NCBI RefSeq assembly: GCF_945859825.1
Contig: NZ_CAMAPC010000001.1
Coordinates: 434,001 to 498,000, forward strand
DNA length: 64,000 bases
Origin: Pseudoalteromonas holothuriae
GTDB taxonomy: Bacteria; Pseudomonadota; Gammaproteobacteria; Enterobacterales; Alteromonadaceae
Direction of reading: 5' to 3'
Below, piece by piece: positions 42,360-51,048 of this stretch; within the stretch, counting starts at the first letter, position 1; each line of letters starts with the position of its first letter. Under the pieces are notes generated by a model. That model was not told where the DNA came from. It made no database searches and saw nothing but the letters and a program-made list of their open reading frames with translations. Made by a program: the position numbers and the translations under genes.

Positions 42360-42752
42360 ACTTATTTAGCCTACATTTTTTCATTATAACCACATACACC
42401 AATTTGCTGTGTAATGTTTATCACGACAAAAAGAATATCGTAATCATCCACTCATACTTTAGTTAAATCGGCCGTGAGAGAGTTTACTTTAATAAAAATT
42501 TATTAGTTTTAGGAGCCGATGTTTAAAGAATAATAATTTATGTATGGTTTGTTAAAAAAAAGTTCAAAATTTTTATTGTCTTTTTTTTTCTAAATTCATG
42601 ATGTAAATGATTTTATTGTTTTTTTATAAAATATGATTCAATTGGTTATAAAACATAATATTTACATATAAGTGGATTTTGTGTAGCTTGAAGATACACG
42701 GGAACAGCATAGGCATAGGTTTAATATGCCACTCAGTATAGTAGGAACGAAT
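42360..42752. other. Very AT-rich leader upstream of csgD
   Basis: About 390 bases with long A and T runs and no gene. Such stretches upstream of csgD in other bacteria bind global regulators (H-NS, IHF and others). No specific site can be named from this sequence. Confidence 0.5.
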
Positions 42753-43448
42753 ATGGGCAAAGTAAATTGTAAAGCGACGATAGTAACCCGAACTGCTGTA
42801 TGTAGATCGGATGAAAACCTTGATAGCATTAGAAGTTTACTTAAACTTTTAAATATAACTGCCAATGTACTTCAATGCGACAAAACACTGATGGAGCTTC
42901 CCATTGAGCAAATGGTTTTTGTAGACTTAACCGGCTTTTCATGTGAAGAAGTATATTCTTTTGATATGGCAGTACTAGCTAAAAGAAAGTCACTTATCTT
43001 ATTTAACGCCTCGGAAGGTCTGGTTGATGAACGCCGAGCGTTGTTAGCGGGCGTTAAAGGGGTTATTTATGCCAAAGATGAGCCGGATATAAAACTAAAA
43101 GGCATCAAAGCGATGAAAGAAGGTGAGCTTTGGTTTCGACGCAGCATTATCAGTAGCACTTTTTCTGAGCTATTAATAGAACATGCTATCTTCAGCAGTC
43201 CATCGCCGGCACCGCAACTTGAAGATGGCACCTTTAACTTAACTAAACGTGAGAAAACTATCGTTAAGTTAATTGCTGAAGGGGCGCAAAACAAAGAGAT
43301 CGCTAATCGATTACATATTAGCGATCATACTGTAAAAACTCATCTCTATAGCGCTTTTCGAAAAACTAAATCAAGAAACCGTATAGAGTTGCTTAACTGG
43401 GCGAGACAATTTTTTCCTGATGCGTTGACTCGGTCTTATTCTGAGTAA
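42753..43448 (+). CDS. csgD: CsgD-like LuxR-family curli regulator
   Basis: A 231-residue regulator with an N-terminal receiver-like domain lacking the usual phospho-acceptor pattern and a C-terminal LuxR HTH (LTKREKTIVKLIAEGAQNKE, then LHISDHTVKTHLY). CsgD activates curli genes in enterobacteria. The ATG at 42753 follows TAGGAAC and matches the CsgD start better than the one at 42726. Unusually, the gene converges on csgG and the two coding regions overlap by 56 bases at their 3' ends. Other LuxR regulators exist, but the csg context makes CsgD the best call. Confidence 0.85.
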   Translation: MGKVNCKATIVTRTAVCRSDENLDSIRSLLKLLNITANVLQCDKTLMELPIEQMVFVDLTGFSCEEVYSFDMAVLAKRKSLILFNASEGLVDERRALLAGVKGVIYAKDEPDIKLKGIKAMKEGELWFRRSIISSTFSELLIEHAIFSSPSPAPQLEDGTFNLTKREKTIVKLIAEGAQNKEIANRLHISDHTVKTHLYSAFRKTKSRNRIELLNWARQFFPDALTRSYSE

Positions 43449-44235
43449 GGGGGCGGGCAGACCAAATGCCTTTATCTATGCCGCTATGGATAAGATCTAC
43501 TAATGCTTTTTCGATAGCTTGCTTTACACAGATATGCATAGGCTCGTTATTAGTATAACCCCCTTCAACTTCAGCAAGTCGTTTGTAGCTGACATATCTA
43601 AAAAAACCAGCTCGTACTTCAAAGCTTAACACGGTTTTTGTTGTTGCAACGGAGGTCAACACAACACCTGTGCGTACATCTACTGCTCGCATATAGATAG
43701 AAATCACATCCTCTCGATATAGCTCAGATAAGCCAATGCCAAAGTATTCAGCACCCAAACCTCCGGTTTTAGTGTTTGAGTCGTAACTAATAATACCGCC
43801 TTCGAGAATAATTTTAGCCGTTTTAAGTGGCGGGAGTTTATCACTTTCATTGCCATTACTGTCTTGCGCTGCACGGATGATTTTTCTCTCCGTGAGAATA
43901 TTTTGCAAACCTTCACGTTCAACGGGGACAAACCATGGCGTTTCACTGAGTGCTTGCACCAGTATCGCAGAGGCACCTTGTGTCACCGCAGTAGAAAATG
44001 AACTAACGTTGGCAATTGGTTTGTATTGGCCAGTTTGATCGCGAAATGAGTAAACGGAAACAGGAATGCTGCCCATCGGTTTTGGTAATGACTTGAGATC
44101 CTCATAGGTATCTGTTGGTGCTAATGTTTGCGCTTTAGTTATTTCTGGCGGTAGGGTATTTGCGATATGAGAGCAACCGCTTGAAATTAAGGCTATGAAA
44201 AATAAACTAATATATTGTATTTTATGGAAGCGCAT
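43393..44235 (-). CDS. csgG: Curli secretion channel CsgG
   Basis: A 280-residue outer-membrane lipoprotein (lipobox ISSGC) that forms the nonameric curlin export channel. It shows the family landmarks VSVYSFRDQTGQYKP, FVPVEREGLQNILTERKII and an ILEGGIISYDSNTKTGG stretch. A TTG at 44241 is possible, but the ATG at 44235 has a GAGGT ribosome site. The start lies inside the end of csgF, suggesting coupling. The C-terminal tail overlaps the end of csgD on the other strand. Confidence 0.93.
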   Translation of the reverse strand: MRFHKIQYISLFFIALISSGCSHIANTLPPEITKAQTLAPTDTYEDLKSLPKPMGSIPVSVYSFRDQTGQYKPIANVSSFSTAVTQGASAILVQALSETPWFVPVEREGLQNILTERKIIRAAQDSNGNESDKLPPLKTAKIILEGGIISYDSNTKTGGLGAEYFGIGLSELYREDVISIYMRAVDVRTGVVLTSVATTKTVLSFEVRAGFFRYVSYKRLAEVEGGYTNNEPMHICVKQAIEKALVDLIHSGIDKGIWSARPLTQNKTESTHQEKIVSPS

Positions 44236-44644
44236 TAGCAAACCTCGGGATCTCTATTGTGGTCACTTCCCCAGAGATAAGGTTCGTAATCTCTATTGTA
44301 ATACTATCGGGATTACTGGTTAGCATTCTAATTTGATGGTCCCCGCTGATAAATGTTGAATCCTGACCAAAAACGTTTTCGTCAGAACTTTCACCAAATG
44401 CTAAATCAGTTACTTCACGTACAATTCTATTGATATAGGATCGCTCCAGTGACTCCTGCATTTTTTCAGCATAACTTTTTGGCTCTGTATGCGCTTTGTG
44501 TTTGTTTTGTGCCTGAGCTTTATTCATTAGCATACTAGCATTGAGCGGACTTCCGCCGAAACTAGGGTTGATAGGTGTGTAGACTAGCTCACTGGCGTAG
44601 CTACTTTGGCTTATAGCCAACATAAAGAGTAGGTATTTTTTCAT
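44222..44644 (-). CDS. csgF: Curli assembly protein CsgF
   Basis: A 140-residue secreted factor with a signal peptide ending near SYAS. The mature N-terminus has the CsgG-binding segment TPINPSFGGSPLNAS, shared with E. coli CsgF. CsgF sits on the channel at the cell surface and localises curlin nucleation. It is 2 bases after csgE and overlaps csgG. Confidence 0.93.
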   Translation of the reverse strand: MKKYLLFMLAISQSSYASELVYTPINPSFGGSPLNASMLMNKAQAQNKHKAHTEPKSYAEKMQESLERSYINRIVREVTDLAFGESSDENVFGQDSTFISGDHQIRMLTSNPDSITIEITNLISGEVTTIEIPRFANALP

Positions 44645-44646
44645 AG

Positions 44647-45090
44647 TTATAGACCACTGCTTGATAAGTCATCACTAAACTTGCTGAAGTTATTACTAGC
44701 AAGTACTTTAATTAAAATAAGTGCCGCTTGTTCTACTTGGTCGTCAATGGGTTTTAAACGTCGGCCTAAGTAGGTGGTGTAGACCATCTGATTATTTAGT
44801 TCTACGGTTAAAATTGTTCCAGCTTTGGGTATTAACGTTTCCTTGATAGTCACAGTCGCGCCTGCTGTTGAAGGAATATCTTGCCAAAGGACACTCAACT
44901 GGCGGTAAAACTCATGTCCAGAGCGACTAATGCTTTGATCTAATAAAAAGCCACCAATGTCGGCTGATTTACTCATTGTGCTCATAAGCAAAAACGAACA
45001 CATAATCACGGTCGTGACGAATACACGTATTGACTTGATGAAGAGACTAAAGCGCTCAGGTATTAATTTGCTAATGCACTCTATTGACAT
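44647..45090 (-). CDS. csgE: Curli assembly protein CsgE
   Basis: A 147-residue periplasmic gate-keeper for CsgG with a long N-terminal signal (hydrophobic about 22-42). The mature domain shows IGGFLLDQSISRSGHEFYRQ and NNQMVYTTYLGRR, as in CsgE. It delivers curlin subunits to the channel. It starts about 60 bases after the csgA stop, with a terminator between, and precedes csgF by 2 bases. Confidence 0.92.
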   Translation of the reverse strand: MSIECISKLIPERFSLFIKSIRVFVTTVIMCSFLLMSTMSKSADIGGFLLDQSISRSGHEFYRQLSVLWQDIPSTAGATVTIKETLIPKAGTILTVELNNQMVYTTYLGRRLKPIDDQVEQAALILIKVLASNNFSKFSDDLSSSGL

Positions 45091-45152: not shown

Positions 45153-46673
45153 TTACTGCTGTACGATTGTAGTCGTGTTGTAATCACCGAGTTGGGTCAC
45201 AGATACATCACCGTTTAGCTGAGACATGCTGCCTTCAACTAAGTTACCAGTGCCGTCTTGCACAACATTAAAGCTTAAGTCGTTACCAGCTATTTCAAAA
45301 GCTCCTTGGTTAAGGCCGACAACCATGTTCATGTCACCCGTTTGGGCAATATCAACGCTGTTGTTAGAGCCTTCTATCATCAAGTCGATAGCATTTAGAT
45401 TACCGTCTTGCATCAAATCAATGGTGTTATTTTGACTAGCCACTTCGCTGCTCAAAGTTACACTCACACCATTTTCATTACCATCTTGGGTAGCAGATAT
45501 TGAGTTACCTGTTGTTGCTAAAGCAGTATCAGGGTAAGACGTTTGTATTTGTGCTTTGTTGGTGTCTCCAATTTGGTTAATTGCAAAGGTGTTGTCTGAG
45601 CCATTAAAGTTGGCAATGTGACTGTCATTATTATCACCGAGCTGGATATTGGTAAATTGGTTATTATCACCAATTGTGCCCATATACGCTTTGTTTTGAT
45701 CGCCTGTTTGTGTTGAGTTAAAGGTGTTATCATCCCCTACAATGTCAACTTCTAGCTCATTTAGTTCGCCAGATTGTTGTGCATTGAGGGTATTGTCGGC
45801 ACCTAAAATCATACCGCTGGTAAAGTCATTGTCATCGCCACGTTGTTGAACGATTAATGTATTTTCTTCACCTTCGATAACAGCAAACTCAATTGAGTTT
45901 GTGTTGCCAAACTGCTGCGTGTTGAGGTTGTTGTCATCGCCATTTAATAAATCAATTTGAAAGTTATTGCGGTCACCTTCTTGTTTTATTTCTAGGTCGT
46001 TGTCGTTCCCCGTTAACTCATTAACTTCGACTACATTCCAATAACCCTCTTGCTTAATTTCAAATTCATTGTCTTCGCCAATGATTTCATTAAGTTTTAC
46101 TTCGTGCCATTCGCCGTGCTGATCAATTGTGATTTCATTATTGTGACCTTCTAAGTCATCAATAAATGCCCAATGTCCGCCCGCGCTTTGAGTCACATTG
46201 ACGATATTATCATCGCCTTGTGCCTTTAGCCTTATTTGATTACCAATCCCACCTTGGCCCGCATCGCCGCTTTGCGCAAACGACAACATATTAGCGTCGC
46301 CCGTTAGTTCAATTTTTGTGGCAGCATCGTTACCTGTTTGGTAATTGGTTATATGATTACTTTGCCCGTTAACTTGAGTGAGCTGAACATTGTTATTACC
46401 TTTTTGCTCTGCTGCAATTTGGTTAGCATCACCAGTTACGCTGGTTTGTGCTCCATTGGTTTCACCACTTTGCAATAAGTTAACTTCGTTGCCAATAGTG
46501 GCACCCGCTGTAGAGTTTTGTGTGATTTCTACACGGTTTTGTTGTGCACCAGCCATAAAGTCGCTTTGAATAGTATCTTGCGTATTCTTACTATCAGGCT
46601 GTGCTGCGAAAGCTGCAGTACCATAACCTAGCGCCATTGCAATGGCGCAGGTGATGAGTGATTTTTTAAGCAT
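45153..46673 (-). CDS. csgA: Giant curlin major subunit, CsgA-like, about 20 repeats
   Basis: A 506-residue secreted protein with a signal peptide (cleavage near AAFA). After a short N-terminal segment, the rest (about residues 44-506) consists of roughly 20 curlin-type units of mostly 22-23 residues, each with the core N-x-hydrophobic-x-hydrophobic-x-Q-x-G followed by N, as in QEGDRNNFQIDLLNGDD. E. coli CsgA is 151 residues with five repeats, so this is about four times as many. The repeats are rich in Asp and Glu with few basic residues. It follows csgB and is translated behind AAGGAC. A beta-solenoid amyloid fibre is the expected product. Confidence 0.85.
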   Translation of the reverse strand: MLKKSLITCAIAMALGYGTAAFAAQPDSKNTQDTIQSDFMAGAQQNRVEITQNSTAGATIGNEVNLLQSGETNGAQTSVTGDANQIAAEQKGNNNVQLTQVNGQSNHITNYQTGNDAATKIELTGDANMLSFAQSGDAGQGGIGNQIRLKAQGDDNIVNVTQSAGGHWAFIDDLEGHNNEITIDQHGEWHEVKLNEIIGEDNEFEIKQEGYWNVVEVNELTGNDNDLEIKQEGDRNNFQIDLLNGDDNNLNTQQFGNTNSIEFAVIEGEENTLIVQQRGDDNDFTSGMILGADNTLNAQQSGELNELEVDIVGDDNTFNSTQTGDQNKAYMGTIGDNNQFTNIQLGDNNDSHIANFNGSDNTFAINQIGDTNKAQIQTSYPDTALATTGNSISATQDGNENGVSVTLSSEVASQNNTIDLMQDGNLNAIDLMIEGSNNSVDIAQTGDMNMVVGLNQGAFEIAGNDLSFNVVQDGTGNLVEGSMSQLNGDVSVTQLGDYNTTTIVQQ

Positions 46674-46697: not shown

Positions 46698-47165
46698 TTA
46701 TTTTGTAACGCTGACGTTGAGCACCATCTCATTACCAAGTTGGTTTATCAGCAGTGTTTGTTCACCAAGTTGCGTTAGATTTACGATATTGGCGTCACCT
46801 TGTTGCACTATGGACGTAAAGTTGTTATCGCCATATTGAACCAAGTTAACGCTATTATTAGCGCCTGCTTGTGTTATTTCGGCCAAGTTGTTTGAACCCA
46901 ATTGCACGAGTGACACCAAGTTTAACTCGTTACCTATTTGCTTTATCGTTGCTTTATTGAATGTTCCGTTTTGCTTTATCGTTGCTTGTAGCTGTGCATG
47001 TACTGACAACGAAGGGTTTATACTCAAAGATAAGGGGGACTCTTTTAGGTCTTCAGAGCTTGCAAAAGCGCCATGACAACTTATCAAGGTGGCTAGCATT
47101 ACCACGAGCTTGTTAAAGCGAGTGTGGTGTGATGCTGCTAGGCGAACCCTGTTCTTTGTTATCAT
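46698..47165 (-). CDS. csgB: Curlin minor subunit, CsgB-like nucleator
   Basis: A 155-residue secreted protein with a signal peptide (cleavage near AFAS) and about five curlin repeats in the second half: IKQIGNELN, LVQLGSNN, ITQAGANN, LVQYGDNN and IVQQGDAN. Its position before the larger curlin and its length match CsgB, which nucleates CsgA on the cell surface. It is first in the minus-strand csgB-csgA-csgE-csgF-csgG unit. Which curlin nucleates is inferred from order and length. Confidence 0.88.
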   Translation of the reverse strand: MITKNRVRLAASHHTRFNKLVVMLATLISCHGAFASSEDLKESPLSLSINPSLSVHAQLQATIKQNGTFNKATIKQIGNELNLVSLVQLGSNNLAEITQAGANNSVNLVQYGDNNFTSIVQQGDANIVNLTQLGEQTLLINQLGNEMVLNVSVTK

Positions 47166-47646: not shown

Positions 47647-50142
47647 ATGAAATTAAAATTATCAGCTCTAACTCTTGCATTAATCCCTTGCCTTTCACAG
47701 GCTGCTATTCATATTGATAAAGAAACAATAAGTGCTGCTGATGACGCGCTAATCGTTGTTTATAAGAAAAATGCATCAAAAGAGCAGCGTATTTCGGCGA
47801 GAAAGCTAGTTGCAGCTAAAATCAGTGACCTTAATCAAGATGAAATTGATGATGCATATCGACATGTTCTAAAAGGTCGCTTGGCTAAATTTAAATTAGA
47901 CAAAAGTGATGTAAAGGATGCACTTAAAGCTTTAAATAATCATCCAGCAGTTGAATATGCAGAGCCTGATTATAAAGTGAGTGTTCAGGGTATGCCAGAT
48001 GATCCTCGATTTGATGAGCTTTGGGGTTTAAATAATACTGGTCAAACTGGTGGTGTTGCAGATGCGGATATTGATGCACCTGAAGCATGGGATGTGTCTA
48101 TTGGTAGCCGCGATGTGGTGGTTGGTGTTATTGACACGGGTGTTGATCACACGCATCCAGATCTTGCTGCAAATATGTGGATAAACCCTAATGAAATCCC
48201 AGGAGATGGCATCGATAACGATGGTAATGGTTACATTGATGATATCCACGGTATCAACGCGATTACTAATGTAGGCGACCCTATGGATGACCAAGGTCAC
48301 GGAACACACGTATCAGGAACTATTGGTGCAGTGGGTAACGATGCTACAGGTGTAGTCGGTGTGAACCATGAAGTATCCATTGTTGGTTGTAAATTCTTAG
48401 ATGCATCTGGCAGTGGTTCAACCTCTGATGCTATCAAGTGTATCGATTACCTAGTTGGTTTACGTGAGGCGGGTGTTGATGTGCGCGTGTCAAACAATAG
48501 CTGGGGCGGCGGTGGTTTTAACCAAGCAATGGCAGATGCATTAACCGCATCTGAGCAAGCGGGTATTCTATTCGTTGCCGCAGCAGGTAACAGTGCGGTT
48601 GATAATGACGTAAGCCCACATTACCCATCAAGCTATGAGCATGAGTCAGTGTTATCTGTTGCAAGTACTACTGATACCGATGCGATGTCAGGCTTTTCTC
48701 AGTGGGGTTTGGTTAGTGTTGATTTAGGCGCGCCAGGTTCAGCTATTTTATCTACTGTTCCAGGTGGCGGTTATGATACTTATTCTGGTACGTCAATGGC
48801 TACTCCACACGTTGCGGGTGTAGCAGCATTAGCGCTTTCTGTTAATCCAACTTTAACAACGCAAGAGCTTAAAGCAGTACTTATGGACTCTGGTGATGAT
48901 AATGAAGCGTTAAACGGCAAAGTTGTATCAGGTAAGCGTTTAAATGCAGCTAGTGCGCTTGAATATGCCGATCCTGAGCCTGGCTTTAGATTATCTGCAA
49001 GCCCAGCTTCGCAAGAAATTGTTGCTGGTGAAAGTGCCACTTACAACTTTGATGTATTATCAGTTGCTGATTGGACGGGTGATGTTGCACTTACAGTAGA
49101 AAGTGATTTACCAGGTGCTGTATTGTCAACAGATGTTGTGCAACCAGGTCTAAGCTTCTCATTAACAGTACCAACATCAGACGATACCAGCTGGGGAAGC
49201 TATACATTTAATGTAACCGCAACCAGTGGAGAGCTTGTTGAGACTAAACAAGTATCGTTGTTTGTTTATCCTCAAGGATTAAATGAGTTCAACTATAGCA
49301 ATGATACAAGTGTAGACATCCCTGATAATGACCCAACGGCTGTGACTTCAGTTATTAGTGTAAATGATGATGTAGTTGTGTTTGACTCAAGCACTTTCTT
49401 AGATATTACCCACACATATATTGGTGATTTGGTCGTGACATTAACGTCACCTGCAGGTACAACTGCAACGCTTCATAATAAAGCGGGTGGCAGTGCTGAT
49501 GATATTAATGACTCGTTTGAGTCAGATGCGTTCAATGGTGAAAATGCAGCCGGTGATTGGGTGTTAACAGTAGAAGATACTTTTGCGCAAGATACAGGCA
49601 CATTAAATCAGTGGTCATTAACGTTGACAGGTTTGGGTGATGTGTCACCTGCAGAACCTGTGGCAGGCTTTAGCTATGTCGCTGATATGCTAAGCGCGAC
49701 CTTCACAGATACAAGTACTGATGCAAATAACGATATTGCTAGTTGGGCTTGGGATTTTGGTGATGGTAATGCATCAACTGAGCAAAACCCTACACATGAG
49801 TTTGCAAGTGCAGGCACTTATGACGTGACATTGACTGTGACAGATGAAACCGGTCTTACAAGCACTAAAGTGCATTCAGTTACTGTAGTTGACCAAGTAA
49901 TTGAACTTAAAGTTAAGCGTGCAAACAAAACGCGCTTGGATTATGCGCGTGTTGAACTTGCTTATCATGGGGTATCATCAGACAGTATCGATGTTTATCG
50001 TGATGGCGCTAAGGTAGCCACAGCGGATAATACAGGTGTTTATCGTGACTTTATTCGTCAAGCTACACAGCAGCAGTATGTATATAAAATCTGTGTTGGC
50101 GAAAATATCTGTTCAGAAGAAGTGACAGTGACTTTTAGATAA
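47647..50142 (+). CDS. Secreted subtilisin-like serine protease (S8) with P-domain and PKD
   Basis: An 831-residue exported protease. Order: signal peptide (1-20), I9-like propeptide (about 30-115), S8 catalytic domain with Asp163 (VIDTGVDH), His218 (GHGTHVSG) and Ser383 (GTSMATPHVAG), a linker beta domain (about 440-545), a proprotein-convertase P-domain (about 545-665, HTYIGDLVVTLTSPAGT), a PKD domain (about 672-750, WAWDFGDGNAST), and a C-terminal FnIII-like domain with two cysteines. Such enzymes degrade external protein in marine bacteria. It is divergent from the curli operon; a role in curli turnover is speculative. A terminator follows. Confidence 0.93.
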   Translation: MKLKLSALTLALIPCLSQAAIHIDKETISAADDALIVVYKKNASKEQRISARKLVAAKISDLNQDEIDDAYRHVLKGRLAKFKLDKSDVKDALKALNNHPAVEYAEPDYKVSVQGMPDDPRFDELWGLNNTGQTGGVADADIDAPEAWDVSIGSRDVVVGVIDTGVDHTHPDLAANMWINPNEIPGDGIDNDGNGYIDDIHGINAITNVGDPMDDQGHGTHVSGTIGAVGNDATGVVGVNHEVSIVGCKFLDASGSGSTSDAIKCIDYLVGLREAGVDVRVSNNSWGGGGFNQAMADALTASEQAGILFVAAAGNSAVDNDVSPHYPSSYEHESVLSVASTTDTDAMSGFSQWGLVSVDLGAPGSAILSTVPGGGYDTYSGTSMATPHVAGVAALALSVNPTLTTQELKAVLMDSGDDNEALNGKVVSGKRLNAASALEYADPEPGFRLSASPASQEIVAGESATYNFDVLSVADWTGDVALTVESDLPGAVLSTDVVQPGLSFSLTVPTSDDTSWGSYTFNVTATSGELVETKQVSLFVYPQGLNEFNYSNDTSVDIPDNDPTAVTSVISVNDDVVVFDSSTFLDITHTYIGDLVVTLTSPAGTTATLHNKAGGSADDINDSFESDAFNGENAAGDWVLTVEDTFAQDTGTLNQWSLTLTGLGDVSPAEPVAGFSYVADMLSATFTDTSTDANNDIASWAWDFGDGNASTEQNPTHEFASAGTYDVTLTVTDETGLTSTKVHSVTVVDQVIELKVKRANKTRLDYARVELAYHGVSSDSIDVYRDGAKVATADNTGVYRDFIRQATQQQYVYKICVGENICSEEVTVTFR

Positions 50143-50208: not shown

Positions 50209-50640
50209 TTAGAAGCCAATTTTGTGCTTCAGTGTTACTTCACATGGTGCGGTATTACTATTAAATCCAGACTGAATAAATAGATGATCGCCAGACTTTA
50301 AGTTCGTTAAAATTTGTATTGTATTATTATAACGACGCTTTGCTATTTGATAAGTAAAGTCTGTAGAGCTATCTCTGTTTACGTCGTAGTTAATCTGGCA
50401 GCCACCTTGAGCACCATCGTTAGTCACCCAAGAGAATGAAACATTATAATTTGTGACATTGTAGCTAAAGTTTGCATTTTGGTTTTGTGAGTACTGATCA
50501 CCAATAACAACGTCAGTCCATCGTGCTTGTGGTACACCCGGTCTTGGTTTTTCTGTGATACTTACACCTAAATTTGAGGCACTTGCGCCTGCTGAAAATG
50601 CTAACGTTGATAGAATTAGTGCAATGCTTGTTTTTTTCAT
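50209..50640 (-). CDS. Small secreted protein, unknown
   Basis: A 143-residue exported protein with a clear signal peptide (MKKTSIALILSTLAFSAGAS). The ATG at 50640 is preceded by AAGGAG; a longer frame adds 12 residues without support. The mature part is rich in Asn, Ser and Thr with alternating strands and two cysteines (GGCQINYD and APCEVTLK) that could form a disulfide, suggesting a small beta-sandwich. Not recognised. It converges on the protease gene. Confidence 0.65.
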   Translation of the reverse strand: MKKTSIALILSTLAFSAGASASNLGVSITEKPRPGVPQARWTDVVIGDQYSQNQNANFSYNVTNYNVSFSWVTNDGAQGGCQINYDVNRDSSTDFTYQIAKRRYNNTIQILTNLKSGDHLFIQSGFNSNTAPCEVTLKHKIGF

Positions 50641-51048
50641 TTTTAAAACTCCTTGTTTAAAATTCGACGTAAACATAACGCCTCTCTAGTCTAGAGTCAA
50701 TGAGCTGGAAAGCTGTTACACTGTTATATTTTTGTTTTTATTTCAGTAATTTAAATAGTGTGAGTGATATTGTGTTTTCCATGACTTGTTTATTTGAACT
50801 TGCACTTCTTTTTGTTTCATTAATTGGGACAATGTATTTTTTATTTTTTATTCGCTGCTTTCATAAAGGATGTTACTAAATCAAATAAATGAGTGAAGTC
50901 TATAGTTGATAAAATTAAATTGTATAAAAATCTGCCCACTTAAAGGTGCAAACCTTCGCTAAATCCCTTAGAGTATTTGACTAAATTTAACATCAGTCAT
51001 TACAAACCATTTTAAAAATATATTTACTTCAATTGTGGGAGAAATAAA
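50641..51048. other. AT-rich intergenic region
   Basis: About 400 bases between divergently read genes; no gene is supported. T-rich runs occur at 50780-50860. Promoters for both neighbours should lie here. Confidence 0.5.

Follow-up and report, generated by a model that had tools for sequence, protein, structure and literature searches.

The long, acidic CsgA of Pseudoalteromonas holothuriae and its counterparts in the genus, family and order

Curli are amyloid fibers of bacteria that give cohesion to biofilms, and their major subunit, the curlin CsgA, varies considerably in size. Outside Enterobacteriales it has been described as reaching 529 residues and 22 repeats, with CsgB staying short (available text of Dueholm et al., 2012, PMC3521004), and curlins with up to 62 repeats were published in 2023. 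According to the same text of PMC3521004, the size of CsgA leaves the size of CsgG unaffected, which was taken to suggest that the subunits are secreted as natively unfolded chains. That text also raises the idea that some species might produce fimbriae without a nucleator; in the part of Sleutel et al. (2023, PMC10192328) available to us, cell-bound curli are stated to need CsgB in the native context. A review from 2025 (PMC12822426, accessible part) presents curli as a flexible scaffold in which the repeat number varies across lineages.

The locus described here lies in a 64,000-nucleotide stretch of the Pseudoalteromonas holothuriae genome (the window; all positions refer to it). The initial annotation of this DNA placed a 506-residue curlin at the csgA position, and the open reading frame on the minus strand indeed matches the Pfam family Curlin_rpt with an E-value of 3.4e-29. 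The features are as follows.

45153..46673, minus strand: csgA, major curlin, 506 aa, ATG start; Curlin_rpt match and phmmer match to PDB 8c50
45594..46208, minus strand: regular core of csgA (residues 156-360), made up of nine 22-23-residue units with Asp/Glu at arc and outward positions and with Trp168, Trp189 and Trp212
46698..47165, minus strand: csgB, minor curlin/nucleator, 155 aa; five QxGxxN motifs and an SPLSLS motif common to other CsgB
44647..45090, minus strand: csgE, 147 aa; Pfam CsgE, E 2.4e-27
44222..44644, minus strand: csgF, 140 aa; Pfam CsgF, E 1.7e-25
43393..44241, minus strand: csgG, secretion pore, 282 aa from a TTG start, with an ATG two codons further in; Pfam CsgG, E 1.8e-80
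42726..43448, plus strand: csgD-like LuxR-type regulator; GerE, E 2.8e-16; its 3′ end overlaps the 3′ end of csgG

The order csgB-csgA-csgE-csgF-csgG on the minus strand, with the csgD-like gene beyond csgG on the plus strand, links csgA to the export genes csgE, csgF and csgG, which were recognized by Pfam matches in the adjoining frames. The csgD-like regulator scores 90.3 bits (E 1.2e-25) with the NCBIfam CsgD model, which is under the cut-off of 250. Upstream of the operon, a subtilase with a proprotein-convertase P-domain and a PKD domain (47647-50142, plus strand) is divergent from csgB at a distance of 481 bases. It is followed by a gene for a 155-aa protein (50209-50676, minus strand) whose start resembles a signal peptide by eye and which has no above-cut-off family match in Pfam or NCBIfam.

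Repeat anatomy and predicted structure of CsgA

Searching CsgA with the curlin-repeat model, a check proposed in the initial annotation, gave 100.9 bits, with eight stretches passing at an E-value limit of 1. With the NCBIfam CsgA equivalog of E. coli type (NF007470) the protein scores 81.3 bits, well under the curated cut-off of 160 bits. Its N-terminus reads Lys-Lys, a hydrophobic run and AFA-A, a putative Sec signal peptide. The motif QxG occurs 19 times, QxGxxN 16 times and NxxxxxQ 21 times; the count varies by motif, and the earlier figure of about 20 units is a fair description. In the mature protein there are 16 copies of QxGxxN and 13 of the joined motif NxxxxxQxGxxN, whereas 2000 shuffles averaged 0.7 copies (at most 4) and 0.1 copies (at most 3), respectively. 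Curlin repeats are tandem units of about 23 residues with the pattern NxPsixPsixQxGxxN, and their content in this protein is thus far above chance.

Nine regular units of 22-23 residues span residues 156-360, and the spacing is irregular before and after. Beyond residue 360 there are units of 29, 26 and 22 residues, followed by a degenerate stretch of 61 residues. The annotated irregularity of units 1-7 is therefore seen, but regularity does not simply continue from about residue 170, as both ends of the array are irregular. Within the nine units Asn, the alternate hydrophobic positions and Gln are kept in 9/9 and Gly in 8/9. Asp and Glu are found mainly at the arcs and outward positions, with position 9 acidic in six of the nine units and the last position in six of the seven units of 23 residues. 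The protein was correctly described as rich in Asp and Glu: the mature chain has 15.1% D+E and 2.7% K+R with a net charge of -60, and its most acidic part, residues 156-293, reaches 22.5% D+E. Isoelectric points from Biopython were discarded since they took the floor value of 4.05 for every protein. The octamers QHGEWHEV and QEGYWNVV, cited earlier as examples of several units with Trp or Tyr, are present, but Trp occurs just three times in the whole protein, at residues 168, 189 and 212.

In the AlphaFold model of the full protein, rungs of strand-turn-strand type begin at about residue 49 and extend to residue 505, making about 18 such pairs in total; the mean pLDDT is 79.5, with low confidence for residues 1-47. 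The segment 151-374 modeled alone gave regular rungs with a pLDDT of 94.9. The alignments behind these models held six close sequences only. Searching PDB with Foldseek yielded no match at E ≤ 0.001 for the full model or the segment; 8c50 came 10th for the full model (E 1.6, TM 0.16) and was absent among the best 50 matches listed for the segment. Nothing in a viral library matched the segment at E ≤ 0.001 either, although five phage proteins named "Curlin associated" were among the best 50 matches listed (best E 8.9e-3). As Foldseek found no match to solved curli, the fold assignment rests on sequence: phmmer connects CsgA to the Pontibacter korlensis CsgA (PDB 8c50) with an E-value of 3.1e-30, the best stretch being residues 151-374, and to E. 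coli CsgA (PDB 8enq) with 8.4e-5. We consider a regular β-solenoid, of either handedness, likely from the models. The expectation of a taller solenoid per monomer is thus matched by the prediction, but not by a significant structural match to a solved curli fiber.

CsgA among relatives in the genus, family and order

Curlin_rpt was present in 86 of 108 Pseudoalteromonas genomes, as were CsgE and CsgF (86/108 each). CsgA was recovered from all 86 curli-bearing genomes (the window and 85 further loci), with start codons in the relatives chosen by a crude hydropathy rule. The lengths range from 478 to 574 aa with a median of 504, and 75 of the 86 proteins fall within 495-515 aa. The acidity is equally ordinary, as D+E in the genus has a median of 14.5% (range 12.9-16.6) and 15 of the 86 proteins exceed the 15.1% of the window. 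Comparing repeat number across the genus had been set as the test for the claim of unusual length. With the long form in 86/86 curli-bearing genomes, that claim is wrong: the length and acidity of the window CsgA are the normal state of the genus. The word "giant" holds against E. coli-sized CsgA, but not within the genus and family, where such length is the norm. The closest records found, by best-segment identity, are Pseudoalteromonas sp. S16_S37 (76%), P. byunsanensis (70%), P. sp. T1lg23B (69%), P. amylolytica (68%) and P. caenipelagi (61%); this search may omit records very close to the window.

For the rest of the family, 40 csgF loci were fetched from 23 other genera. CsgA had 461-517 aa in 37 of these 40 loci (20 genera), where the starts were picked by rule and the shortest values (461 and 464) may be clipped. 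The other three (L164, L190 and L193) were without a CsgA of this type and were excluded. At two of them, L164 and L190, a long ORF (800 and 712 aa, respectively) with one QxGxxN each was seen, and the usual CsgA was not found there. On a tree of CsgA, four rows of the genus (L073, L042, L050 and L122) group with other genera of the family, for which either genus limits or operon transfer could account.

A further 40 loci were sampled from other families of the order. The largest curlin has 285-614 residues in 26 of them, and six loci of one family (f18) carry curlins of E. coli size, 149-162 residues (one of 204). The five-repeat form is thus the smaller group in this sample. Seven of the 40 (L200, L201, L202, L227, L229, L238 and L239) had no curlin ORF within the fetched stretch; in addition, L211 is a short contig with a 180-aa ORF only, and an 838-aa opposite-strand frame with two motifs in L210 was left uncounted. 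Three neighboring curlin-like frames of 368, 495 and 291 aa were also noted in a Prolixibacteraceae MAG (L159:3805-7508).

Individual rungs can be followed through the family. At the variable positions, identity between units that occupy the same place as in the window CsgA is 30% within the genus and 26% for the other genera, as compared to 13% for shifted units. The best match was the unit of the same register in 578 of 1470 cases in the genus and in 180 of 603 in the other genera, where about 1 in 18 is expected by chance. Several residues are specific to one rung. Glu191 and Asp430 are found in 86/86 genus and 37/37 other-genera rows (123/123 family members), and Trp168, encoded by window positions 46170-46172, in 86/86 and 36/37 (122/123). 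Tyr330 and His352 are both invariant in the genus (86/86 each) and occur in 28/37 and 18/37 rows of the other genera, respectively. Trp189 is present in 69/86 and Trp212 in 35/86 genus rows, the latter being Tyr or Phe otherwise. To see whether the Trp168 rung extends beyond the family, 27 long curlin ORFs from the order were examined; it is clear only in the two f16 sequences, with a possible Trp in the two f15 sequences, and a 285-aa ORF (L237) below the motif filter was omitted from this test. Judged by these alignments, the CsgA array is old and length-locked, with rungs that are orthologous by position, not interchangeable, and of which some have their own conserved residue. This differs from the flexible-scaffold picture drawn in the accessible part of PMC12822426, as the length of CsgA is near constant in the family members examined and conserved residues are unit-specific.

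csgB distribution and readings of the long CsgA

The window genome has csgB, and csgB adjoins csgA in 20 of the 86 genus loci, namely in the window and 19 of those fetched; a complete reading of the frames upstream of csgA covered 14 of the 86. Whole genomes were searched with a profile of 26 CsgB sequences. The 20 csgB-bearing genomes, several of which are profile rows, gave 181.8-211.2 bits, with 183.8 bits for the window protein, itself among the 26. No CsgB was found by this search in the other 66 curli-bearing genomes, where the best match was at most 43.1 bits and the matches listed are frames of 484-706 residues, which is the size of csgA (with stop read-through in some). One of the 66 (G073) has csgA at a contig edge, where an assembly gap is possible. 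Genus loci such as L040, L044, L059 and L094 lack csgB but retain csgA and csgF, and so do five rows from other genera (L165, L166, L187, L191 and L192) with 36.1-39.5 bits. On the CsgA tree, a gene tree from a short search, the absences correspond to two changes, a clade of 66 (SH-aLRT 98) and a clade of 5 (100).

The csgA gene is intact in the csgB-less genus genomes, with 478-516 residues. Its median pairwise dN/dS is 0.049 for 91 csgB-less pairs vs. 0.066 for six pairs with csgB; the pairs are not independent and were restricted to 80-98.5% identity and dS of 0.05-1.2. CsgE and CsgF are kept in all 86 curli-bearing genomes. Comparing CsgF consensus sequences by eye (20 with csgB, 65 of the 66 without, one CsgF being unrecovered), we found that the groups differ, with no difference attributable to csgB. 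A CsgA-CsgB fusion as source of the extra length was rejected, since the CsgA medians are alike (504 in csgB-less and 504.5 in csgB-bearing genomes). In one genome (G060, C1:2932921-2933704) two short frames of 128 and 113 aa that lie outside the csg operon have CsgB-like matches and perhaps belong to a second curlin locus. We found no published report of csgB loss in Pseudoalteromonas in the open-access literature as far as its text was available. The loss of csgB is possibly more interesting than the length of CsgA.

Taken together, we take the window protein to be the ordinary CsgA of Pseudoalteromonas and its family, with a probability of roughly 0.93. This reading is based on a long, intact curlin-repeat protein, a complete csgBAEFG operon and a similar length in the relatives examined, and the steps of its pathway are borrowed from the established curli system. 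CsgA would be exported by Sec and would pass unfolded, assisted by CsgE, through the CsgG-CsgF pore. Outside the cell it would fold, on CsgB or on the fiber end, into a two-sheet β-solenoid of about 18-20 rungs, and at 4.8 Å per rung (spacing from the available part of PMC10192328) a monomer would be about 9-10 nm long. End-to-end stacking would then give biofilm fibers, with CsgB as the nucleator in the window strain, and the acidic residues, mostly at arcs and outward positions, would coat the fiber surface and make it negative. The initial annotation saw a difficulty in moving so long a chain through a CsgG pore built for short ones. There is no such paradox, given that CsgG is reported to be unaffected in size by CsgA (PMC3521004, as available).

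Two other readings start from the protein itself. An exceptional CsgA, newly expanded in the window strain through duplication of repeats, is hardly credible. Whole units can be gained, as a three-unit insertion of 69 columns in the regular core of P. caenipelagi csgA (L156:5001-6722) represents a gain of whole rungs and as four relatives attain 551-574 aa. However, the presence of the long form in every curli-bearing genome of the genus already refutes a recent expansion, the units are orthologous by position and not fresh copies, and no tandem repeat was found in the csgA DNA, which has one weak family of 23-nt direct repeats only. These three lines, namely the survey of the genus, the register of the units and the missing tandem DNA repeats, led us to reject recent repeat expansion. 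It is also improbable, if less so, that the main role of the long acidic array is to present a surface that binds divalent cations or mineral, with fiber building secondary. The net charge, the acidic residues 156-293 and the regular placing of Asp and Glu at arc position 9 and at the last position of the units would fit such a role, but CsgA is no more acidic here than in its relatives, and the exported proteins of marine bacteria are commonly acidic. According to the accessible text of PMC10192328, Ca2+ increased the fibrillar aggregates of the acidic Pontibacter curlin (20% D/E), which also acquired a mineral crust, hypothesized to be calcium phosphate, but its fibers formed in EDTA too. 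By analogy, cation binding by the window CsgA is plausible and not a new idea.

The remaining alternative concerns nucleation, and we regard it as a minority possibility that the long CsgA of the family starts its own fibers, so that CsgB would be dispensable in the window strain too. The gap between at most 43.1 bits in 66 of 86 genomes and the scores where CsgB is present, the five similar rows from other genera, the intact csgA with its low median dN/dS and the retention of CsgE and CsgF all point this way. On the other hand, an unrelated, unrecognized nucleator may stand in for CsgB, and the dN/dS pairs are not independent. Moreover, csgB is kept in 10/10 rows of the window's own clade on the CsgA tree, which argues that CsgB is still used there. 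Along the same line we tentatively propose, at odds clearly below even, that the CsgA of the family may be a fixed-length machine whose rungs, about 20 in number and orthologous by position, would jointly be able to nucleate; some of them would carry a conserved surface residue of their own (Trp168, Glu191 and Asp430). Such built-in nucleation would explain how csgB could be lost at least twice with csgA left intact under purifying selection. If this is true, the csgB-less species are natural nucleator-free curli systems. If they make cell-bound curli, the CsgB requirement given in the available text of PMC10192328 does not hold generally, and built-in nucleation would best be sought in the long CsgA. 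For the window strain, the ordinary CsgA working with CsgB remains the reading we prefer.

Comparison with known curli systems

E. coli CsgA (PDB 8enq) has the same type of unit as the window CsgA and belongs to an operon with the same functions, but the available text of PMC3521004 gives it about 152 residues with 4-5 repeats, and its operon layout is unlike that of the window. CsgC also sets the two apart: PF10610 was detected in the E. coli control and in 0 of 107 Pseudoalteromonas genomes.

The Pontibacter korlensis CsgA R15.5 (PDB 8c50) is, according to the accessible part of Sleutel et al. (2023, PMC10192328), long and acidic with units of about 23 residues, like the window CsgA. It differs in being highly regular with 20% D/E, whereas the window protein is irregular at both ends, carries Trp rungs and has 15.1% D/E.

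The closest likeness is found within Alteromonas and Pseudoalteromonas. The available text of PMC3521004 describes for them one csgBAEFG operon followed by csgD in reverse orientation, from which the window shows no material difference; that text contains no report of a length lock, of rung-specific residues or of csgB-less species of Pseudoalteromonas. The P. tunicata genome paper of 2008 (PMC2536512, accessible part) likewise describes the csg genes as an uninterrupted operon, downstream of which csgD lies in reverse orientation, and has no figure for the length of CsgA. The window CsgA is thus another member of the published long-CsgA type.
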